64,000 bases of DNA. It comes from Oscillatoria sp. CS-180. GTDB taxonomy: Bacteria; Cyanobacteriota; Cyanobacteriia; Phormidesmidales; Phormidesmidaceae. Below are positions 57,495 through 59,301 of this stretch, piece by piece. How positions within the stretch are numbered: the stretch's first letter is position 1; each line of letters begins with the position of its first letter. The translations under genes were made by a program, and so were the position numbers. The DNA is taken from NCBI RefSeq assembly GCF_028330965.1, contig NZ_JAQMUB010000031.1, positions 1 to 64,000 on the forward strand, read 5' to 3'. The notes under the pieces were generated by a model. It was not told where the DNA came from, searched no databases, and was given only the letters and a program-made list of their open reading frames with translations.

Positions 57495-57642
57495 GCCAGC
57501 TAACTATTAAATAGAGGGACACTTTCCACCTAAGATTCCCATACGGGTAAATAGGTAGAAATATTTCCGCCTAAGATCCTGTTTTGGGCAGATAGGTGGA
57601 ACACCGTCCACCTAAGATCTACATGTGGGCAAATAGGTGGAA
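57495..57642. other. attI-like site with three 41-bp-spaced dyads
   Basis: The core-like sequence GTTAGCTGGC (minus strand, 57504-57495) equals the R box of the neighbouring attC site. Beside it lie three units starting at 57523, 57564 and 57605, exactly 41 bp apart: TTCCACCTAAGAT...AAATAGGTAGAA, TTCCGCCTAAGAT...AGATAGGTGGAA, TCCACCTAAGAT...AAATAGGTGGAA. Each unit is an inverted repeat of TCCACCTA with TAGGTGGA. They could be integrase-binding direct repeats of attI, an operator array, or an unrelated repeat. Confidence 0.55.
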
Positions 57643-57723
57643 TGATTCAATATAATCATCCCTTCAATTCCAGGCTGAACCTGTTTAGAGTTTATTCAGC
57701 ATCTCTTTTCAGGCCGTCTACCG

Positions 57724-58020
57724 ATGCAAGCAGAACCTCGTCCAAAGAAGCTACTCGACTAGGTTCCGGACGCGGTTCGCTTAAAGCACTATTCCTACCG
57801 CACAGAACAAACCTATCTGCAATGGATTCACCGCTTCATCTTGTTTCATAACAAGCGTCACCCTCAAGCGATGGGTGTTCCTGAGATTGAGGCTTTTCTT
57901 ACCCATCTGGCTGTGCAAGAGCAGGTGGCGCCCCACCCAAAATCGAGCATTGAGCGCCCTACTTTTCCTGTATCGACATATTTTACAGCTACCGTTGGAT
58001 GAGCGGATTGATACCATTCG
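57724..58020 (+). pseudogene. intI: Integron integrase (IntI) remnant
   Basis: From ATG 57724 the frame gives PRPKKLLD, TAG at 57760-57762 (CAG in relatives, as I recall), then RLKHYSYRTEQTYLQWIHRF and ILFHNKRHPQAMGVPEIEAF and LTHLAVQEQVA. At about 57930-57938 the similarity shifts frame and continues TQNRALSALLFLYRHILQLP, then LDERIDTIR. These strings are the N-terminal SAM-like domain of integron integrases. The catalytic half with the R-H-R-Y residues and the IntI-specific insertion is missing. It is divergent from the cassette genes, as required for an integron. Confidence 0.85.
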
Positions 58021-58186
58021 AGTGATAGCTTCTATAAAGTCTATGCCATCAAGCTGGATGAGTTGGTGCAGGGCGTTATGCTTCTAGAAACACAGGGGCG
58101 ATCGCTTCTGGTTAGCGGAGCGATCACCCTTGGTCTACATTGAATGCTTGGCTTCTGCTCGTTAGAATAGCGTCAACCTTGAATAA

Positions 58187-58213
58187 AGCCCCCTCGGTAA
58201 GCTTAAGGGGGCT
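58187..58213 (-). terminator. Hairpin terminator of the repeat-protein gene
   Basis: AGCCCCCT (58187-58194) with AGGGGGCT (58206-58213); on the minus strand followed by TTATTC. It lies about 100 bases past the stop of the minus-strand repeat protein gene. Between them is a short tandem CTCCTGACTTCTGG/CTCCTGACTTCTAG (about 58256-58290). Confidence 0.6.
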
Positions 58214-58311: not shown

Positions 58312-58773
58312 CTACGCCACCGCGTCTTTCTCCAAGTTTTCCTGACGCAATTCATCAAAGTCGATCGCAGCGACCACTTCGTAAACCGCATCCTTGTCGA
58401 GATTCTCGCGCCGCAACTCGTCGAAGTCCACAGCGTCTTTGTCTAAGTTTTCACGACGTAGCTCGTCGAAATCAATGGCCGCGACCTCGTAAGCCGCGTC
58501 CTTGTCGAGGTTCTCACGACGTAGTTCGTCAAAATTGACTGCATCCTTATCCAAATTCTCACGGCGCAATTCATCAAAGTCGATCGCTTTCACCTGAATG
58601 GTTTCGACCGCATCCTTGTCGAGATTCTCGCGACGCAGTTCGTCAAAGTTGACGGCGTCTTTTTCCAGGTTCTCGCGGCGTAGCTCGTCGAAGTCAATGG
58701 CAGCGTGGCTAGCGGGAGCAATGGCGATAGTAACAGCGGTCAGAGCAGTGAGGGCAAGTGCAATGCGTTTCAT
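58312..58773 (-). CDS. Secreted protein of seven FDELRRENL repeats
   Basis: A 153-residue protein: signal peptide residues 1-24 (LALTALTAVTIAIAPASHA), then almost nothing but seven repeats of (I/N/D)-D/N-FDELRRENLDKDAV, about 15-16 residues each, in pairs separated by short linkers such as ETIQVKA, YEVAA and YEVVAA. Every unit has the charged pattern F-D-E-L-R-R-E-N-L-(D/E)-K-D. No known domain is recognised. Start 58773 has AGGAG upstream on the minus strand. The DNA repeats are also close to identical (period about 45-66 bases), so unit number may vary. Confidence 0.8.
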   Translation of the reverse strand: MKRIALALTALTAVTIAIAPASHAAIDFDELRRENLEKDAVNFDELRRENLDKDAVETIQVKAIDFDELRRENLDKDAVNFDELRRENLDKDAAYEVAAIDFDELRRENLDKDAVDFDELRRENLDKDAVYEVVAAIDFDELRQENLEKDAVA

Positions 58774-59196
58774 GGTTGAACTCCTGGGTTGATGTGTTGT
58801 TTCAATCATCTTGAGTTCTATAGTGCAGGCCCTCCCTGAGCCGTTCCTGACCACAAAATAAGTCTGCCTTAATCGCTTCCTGAGAAGTCTGAGCGCTGCC
58901 ACATAATGGCCTGAGATGAACTATTGGGAAGGCAATACAGAGGTGAAGGGCGTCGGAGGTGTTGTGTCAGGTGGAGGACAAGGTACGAGCTGGATAGGAA
59001 ACAGGGAAGAGATTTCACTCACAGGGCAAATGATGCTGGATGGGTTTACTTATCACGATGAGCGATACAGCGACACTTGTCTTGATGGGTTTTGCTGGTG
59101 AGGGTTGAGGAGCAGGCGAAGGTGACAAAATTTGGGGCGTGGGCAACTCCTAACGTAACTAAACCATAGGACTATCGACGATAAAGTGGAGCCTGT

Positions 59197-59301
59197 TATA
59201 GCCGTCGCTAGTTCCGTTAGGGCAAGACGGCGAGCCATCTGGTCTATGCTAAGCACCCGGATGCTATTGGGAATGCACAAACCTAAGTGGCTACAGCTAT
59301 A
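59197..59301 (+). repeat. R1 repeat copy (best preserved, forward)
   Basis: TATAGCCGTCGCTAGTTCCG, TTAGGGCAAGACGGCGAGCC, ATCTGGTCTATGCTAAGCAC, CCGGATGCTATTGGGAATGC and ACAAACCTAAGTGG, then CTACAGCTATA. Ends TATAG and CTATA are inverted. It lies in the long gap after the repeat-protein gene. Confidence 0.88.

Follow-up and report, generated by a model that had tools for sequence, protein, structure and literature searches.

RESULTS

A secreted protein of seven repeat units

The window analyzed here comprises the first 64,000 nucleotides of contig NZ_JAQMUB010000031.1 of the cyanobacterium Oscillatoria sp. CS-180. Its minus strand carries an open reading frame at 58312-58773, the translation of which starts MKRIALALTALTAVTIAIAPASHAA and continues with seven FDELR(R/Q)ENL units (Table 1). 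The signal peptide and the seven units described in an initial annotation of this DNA were both located in the protein, referred to here as P0001, and the signal peptide is of the Sec type, in agreement with the secretion proposed there. The unit consensus is FDELR(R/Q)ENL(D/E)KDA, and one 9-mer is present six times in the mature protein (maximum in 20,000 shuffles, 1). In the DNA, the seven repeat copies are spaced alternately by 45 and 63 to 69 nt, which identifies two 15-residue units plus a short linker as the true module. Thus, of the repeat initially described as a 15- to 16-residue unit, the seven copies stand, but the real repeat is the doublet, and the protein is laid out as three doublets plus one single, slightly diverged unit. 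The initial annotation described alternating acidic and basic residues in the unit; overall, the charge is unbalanced (43 D+E versus 21 K+R; pI 4.2; GRAVY -0.93).

Pairwise comparison of the units within the gene revealed 166 synonymous and 22 nonsynonymous codon differences, and 182 of the 218 base differences fall at third codon positions. The units therefore differ mainly at silent positions, implying that selection acts on the protein.

Table 1. Features of the P0001 gene and its flanks (window coordinates)
Feature	Position	Strand	Remarks
Repeat-protein CDS (P0001), 153 aa	58312..58773	-	Signal peptide plus seven repeat units; stop included
Sec-type signal peptide MKRIALALTALTAVTIAIAPASHA	58702..58773	-	From sequence and conserved MK-start signal peptides in homologues; putative cleavage after SHA
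Doublet 1 (units 1 and 2)	58606..58692	-	
Linker ETIQVKA	58585..58605	-	
Doublet 2 (units 3 and 4)	58492..58578	-	
Linker YEVAA	58477..58491	-	
Doublet 3 (units 5 and 6)	58384..58470	-	
Linker YEVVAA	58366..58383	-	
Unit 7, single, FDELRQENLEKDAV	58318..58359	-	
Ribosome-binding site (C)AGGAGT	58780..58786	-	Kept as AAGGAGTTCAA in paralogues
Family promoter	58811..58896	-	CTCAG/TTAAG/TTATT/TCAGG direct repeats, 11-bp period, plus CTATAG element; response-regulator-type array
Terminator-like hairpin AGCCCCCT...AGGGGGCT, then TTTATT	58187..58213	-	-16 kcal/mol, z -2.6

The terminator-like hairpin, which is absent from a terminator scan with a loop limit of 8, suggests that the gene is transcribed alone and probably forms a single transcription unit. 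The gene separates an HNH ORF and a restriction-endonuclease-like ORF from grpE and pilB-like genes (all named from translations); none of these neighbors recurs beside the relatives elsewhere (34 signal-peptide loci). The surrounding genes in the window are unrelated, and neither a transposase nor an exporter gene adjoins the P0001 gene there. Two further features of the window lie nearby. A 41-bp repeat is present in three tandem copies at 57516-57647 (CCACCTAAGATT...GGGTAAATAGGTGGAA), flanked by the endonuclease-like gene and by what may be an integrase remnant at 57740-58090, where frames judged by eye resemble the broken N terminus of an integron or phage-type integrase (RHPQAMGVPEIEAFLTHLAVQEQVA).

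Paralogues share a dedicated promoter

The genome of Oscillatoria sp. CS-180 contains eight signal-peptide members of this family, the P0001 gene included, and one double-glycine (GG) member, located on different contigs. In the genomes of relatives, the number of copies ranges from none to more than ten, and counting of repeats, as advised in the initial annotation, yielded chains of 2 to 13 units. Named relatives belong to Leptolyngbya, Halomicronema, Nodosilinea, and Shackletoniella, accompanied by related metagenome bins. Convincing matches are limited to one taxonomic family, with few and weak matches beyond it. Both the ribosome-binding site and the signal peptide are conserved among signal-peptide members. 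No recurrent operon partner was detected among the 34 signal-peptide loci, and no conserved enzyme neighbor was found at these or at the GG loci. In one Shackletoniella member (L091/L143), the repeat array is frameshifted and includes a masked stretch, its units being LREENLDKVDFGK with an 11-residue period.

One conserved promoter is present upstream of seven of the eight copies in the own genome, including the P0001 gene. More generally, YTCAG/TTAAG half-sites with an 11-bp period form a common array upstream of the signal-peptide genes, and in both sequence lineages base identity at 11- and 22-bp offsets is 0.38 to 0.52, compared to about 0.25 in shuffles. Direct repeats spaced by 11 bp are typical for response regulators of the OmpR/PhoB type. 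A 51-nt pattern of this promoter, searched in six genomes, matched almost only upstream of the repeat-protein family and gave no control matches, and a promoter profile search in five genomes agreed with this result. Three of the matches (G000:C30, G000:C92:95051, and G005:C1:601838) resemble promoters that have lost their gene. Window positions 59195-59285, near the P0001 gene, resemble L313 (G000:C92, about 95,100) over roughly 80 bp (CATCCGGGTGCTTAGCA...CCAGATGGCTCGCCGTCTTG), and the L313 copy of this stretch directly follows a decayed family promoter.

A similar CTCAG array of 11-bp period was also observed upstream of secreted YHS-domain proteins with (N/D)PCAA repeats (L314 [G001:C1:1585873], L315, L317, and L318), and these proteins may for this reason belong to the same regulon as the repeat-protein family. 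The YHS/PCAA array in G005 was matched at an E value of 7.5e-4 by a promoter model that was built including the corresponding array in G001 but leaving out that in G005.

Double-glycine peptides carry the same doublet beside exporter genes

P0001 has a Sec signal and no double-glycine leader, but relatives sharing its unit do carry such a leader. G000:C7 and G032:C2 each encode a peptide of 55 to 56 amino acids, in which a leader ending LSDDQLKDVSGG (or LSDDELKEVSGG) is directly followed by one doublet. These genes are divergent from TIGR03896, TIGR03794, TIGR03796, and TIGR03797 genes, the TIGR03794 assignments at both loci being short ORFs below the cutoff. At 8 of 13 loci inspected, the GG peptide gene adjoins TIGR03796/TIGR03797 genes of NHLM-type bacteriocin exporters, the other five loci being on short contigs; contig coordinates add G242, G276, G365, and G033 to the exporter-adjacent peptides. 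Doublets with a GG leader next to TIGR03796/TIGR03797/TIGR03896 genes thus occur in several genera. In three precursors (L088, L092, and L098), two doublets are separated by a second GG leader.

A TIGR03797 gene scored above the cutoff in 28 of 65 genomes of the taxonomic family. In G001, G002, and G004, which belong to one genus, the signal-peptide form is present and neither a GG peptide nor a TIGR03797 gene above the cutoff was detected, so the two forms are not strictly interdependent. Among the neighbors of 13 GG loci and 34 signal-peptide loci, no recurrent modification enzyme was found, a result that would still allow for one encoded at a distance, nor was a recurrent immunity gene found at either kind of locus. 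The leader models for NHLP (TIGR03793) and Nif11 (TIGR03798) gave no match above the cutoff; the best leader likeness was to NF038167, with 24.4 bits against a cutoff of 32.

Units group by lineage rather than by export route

In a sister group of four genera (g2, g3, g5, and g13), many signal-peptide copies carry a second unit variant of 18 residues, [KS]AVDDIQxTRLEHLDNQ(S/T)K. The GG peptides of g2 and g13 carry the IQxTRLEHLDNQ[ST]K unit as well, and the GG peptide gene of g2 frequently lies divergent to one resembling NHLM HlyD in sequence. Within a lineage, units of the two export routes are 75% and 57% identical, compared to 31 to 34% between lineages within one export route, so that unit similarity follows lineage and not the route of export. 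Matching unit variants were found in all 14 genomes possessing both forms, the permutation result on this matching being dominated by lineage and thus not an independent proof of contact. It does show that units have been exchanged or have coevolved between the signal-peptide and GG gene types.

Family, fold, and literature searches

No profile of Pfam, NCBIfam, or PHROGs matched P0001 above the cutoff, and no curated family matched the GG peptides above the cutoff, in accordance with the initial annotation, the author of which knew of no described family with this unit. In other members, ERM_C, PqqA, and DUF5388 did score above the cutoff, yet these matches look like charged-repeat artifacts. 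Searches of the PDB by sequence and, with the GG peptide model, by fold, as well as a literature string search for the unit sequence, returned no match. A viral or phage origin was rejected, with no relative among viral contigs; the better of two huge-phage matches is a different YSEYIAENLDKNI coiled repeat, and the single plasmid match was spurious (20%).

In the GG peptide model, a helix at residues 30 to 55 is predicted to span the whole doublet (block means, 68 to 73 pLDDT). The P0001 chain model places a helix at each unit with poor confidence (pLDDT 44). Of the amphipathic helical adhesive considered initially, the helical part is consistent with these short predicted helices, with low confidence.

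DISCUSSION

A possible coat of chains and free doublets

The P0001 gene belongs to a lineage-restricted cyanobacterial family of coregulated, Sec-exported repeat proteins, in which the doublet may serve as a short acidic alpha-helical element acting outside the cytoplasm. The Sec route would deliver this element as a chain of 2 to 13 units, and the route via a C39-peptidase ABC exporter would deliver it free, as a peptide of about 29 residues. We propose, with a probability of roughly 0.4, that the acidic helical module binds its own kind and that chains and free doublets together build a cell surface or matrix coat. Such variation in unit number would be expected of a polymer-like part rather than of an enzyme.

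A matrix function of this kind can be likened to that of the EbfG proteins of Synechococcus, and the cyanobacterial precedent of GG-exported biofilm proteins lends support to the coat reading: small proteins exported in this manner, three of which form amyloid, are required for biofilm formation (PMC4997328, PMC9981879). EbfG1-4 of Synechococcus elongatus work in a way that might be analogous to that of the GG relatives, being small, GG-exported, and structural outside the cell (PMC4997328, PMC9981879). Unlike the P0001 family, they have not been described as Sec-signal-bearing tandem chains, and an amyloid (cross-beta) structure is predicted for them instead of a helix. We do not claim that the repeat proteins are members of the EbfG family; the suggested likeness concerns export motif and role.

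A somewhat less probable extension of this idea is that free doublets and Sec chains recognize each other, so that the sequences of both forms change in step and provide a lineage-specific coat or kin-recognition signal. The lineage-matched units could alternatively stem from a single past switch and subsequent gene conversion, with no physical contact between the two forms.

Competing explanations

The strongest rival to the coat reading, which we nevertheless consider rather doubtful, is a multicopy peptide precursor: periplasmic proteases would cut the chain at its linkers, the doublets would act as signals or bacteriocin-like peptides, and the NHLM exporter would release the same peptide. 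It ranks above the other rivals because the core of the GG peptides equals one doublet and because most long linkers (68 of 85) end in a small-x-small motif, immediately before the next doublet. The internal second GG leader of three precursors, as in multicore precursors, points in the same direction, and the one-doublet GG peptides beside exporters lend indirect support to the cleaved precursor suggested in the initial annotation. However, linkers are missing from several members (e.g., L026 and L029) and from the entire second lineage, the cores of each lineage are conserved, which most bacteriocin cores are not, and the loci lack a recurrent immunity or modification gene. P0001 might instead act as a LEA-like hydrophilic protectant, in the periplasm or in the sheath, and be switched on under stress via the shared response-regulator-type promoter. 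Group 3 LEA proteins are built of hydrophilic, charged, helical tandem repeats with an 11-residue period, and P0001 has such hydrophilic (GRAVY -0.93), charged repeats, predicted to be conditionally helical, in many copies under one dedicated promoter. Its period differs, it has no sequence match to these proteins, no LEA model appeared among Pfam matches up to an E value of 10, and protection would not account for the presence of the same doublets in NHLM precursors, which makes this an improbable role.

Binding of cations or metals by a secreted protein, with the unit or the junction (LDKDAVDFDEL) as a degenerate EF-hand-like site, seems slightly less probable again. The acidic character of the protein (pI 4.2), a weak match to EF-hand_5 (E value, 0.002), and the similar promoter array of YHS-domain/PCAA proteins in G001 and G005, the ligands of which may be metals, would fit; yet the EF-hand score is 18 against a gathering threshold of 25.9 bits, the loop lacks about three residues compared with the 12-residue DxDxDG loop, and most of the Asp pattern is missing in the second lineage. 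That the scattered copies spread as selfish or mobile DNA, with an incidental reading frame, is very improbable, even though the promoter is copied along with the genes and gene-less promoter remnants exist in two genomes. Such an element is contradicted by the codon pattern, with its mostly silent differences, and the conserved ribosome-binding site and signal peptide, as well as the position of the window copy among unrelated genes with no adjoining transposase, also argue against it.

Relation to known exporter systems

Many cyanobacterial bacteriocin-type exporters have products without known function. Here, the exporter product is a simple repeated helix, as predicted, that the same cells also make for Sec export, from many copies with one dedicated promoter. 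This offers a direct handle on the purpose of at least one such exporter, and its role might be structural or social rather than killing. We did not find a description of a shared module with lineage-matched variants across two export routes; secreted repeat proteins and NHLM peptides are each of a known kind. With NHLM/NHLP systems (TIGR03794, TIGR03796, TIGR03797; group V clusters, Wang et al. 2011, PMC3140520), the same-unit relatives share the GG leader and the position divergent from such an operon. In contrast to these systems, P0001 has a Sec signal peptide in place of a GG leader, the family loci contain no modification enzyme, and the core is a conserved, putatively helical acidic doublet and not a variable Cys/Ser/Thr-rich sequence. 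The MXKDX pentapeptide repeat proteins (TIGR02953) are, like P0001, small, secreted, and built of repeats, and they share KDA motifs and a similar signal peptide with it, but P0001 scores 34.4 bits against a cutoff of 41, its period is 15 residues and not 5, and it has no Met pattern.

At two exporter loci, NHLM HlyD-type ORFs (L053:8057-8815 and L054:7885-8442) are 185 to 252 amino acids long, compared with 421 model positions, and score below the cutoff, but are conserved across genera; a reduced HlyD-type adaptor may thus be usual for these exporters. Upstream of the GG-type genes, e.g., in L053 before 9920, a different element, ATTTTTTCAGGCAGACA, is conserved at about 80 bp from the start.
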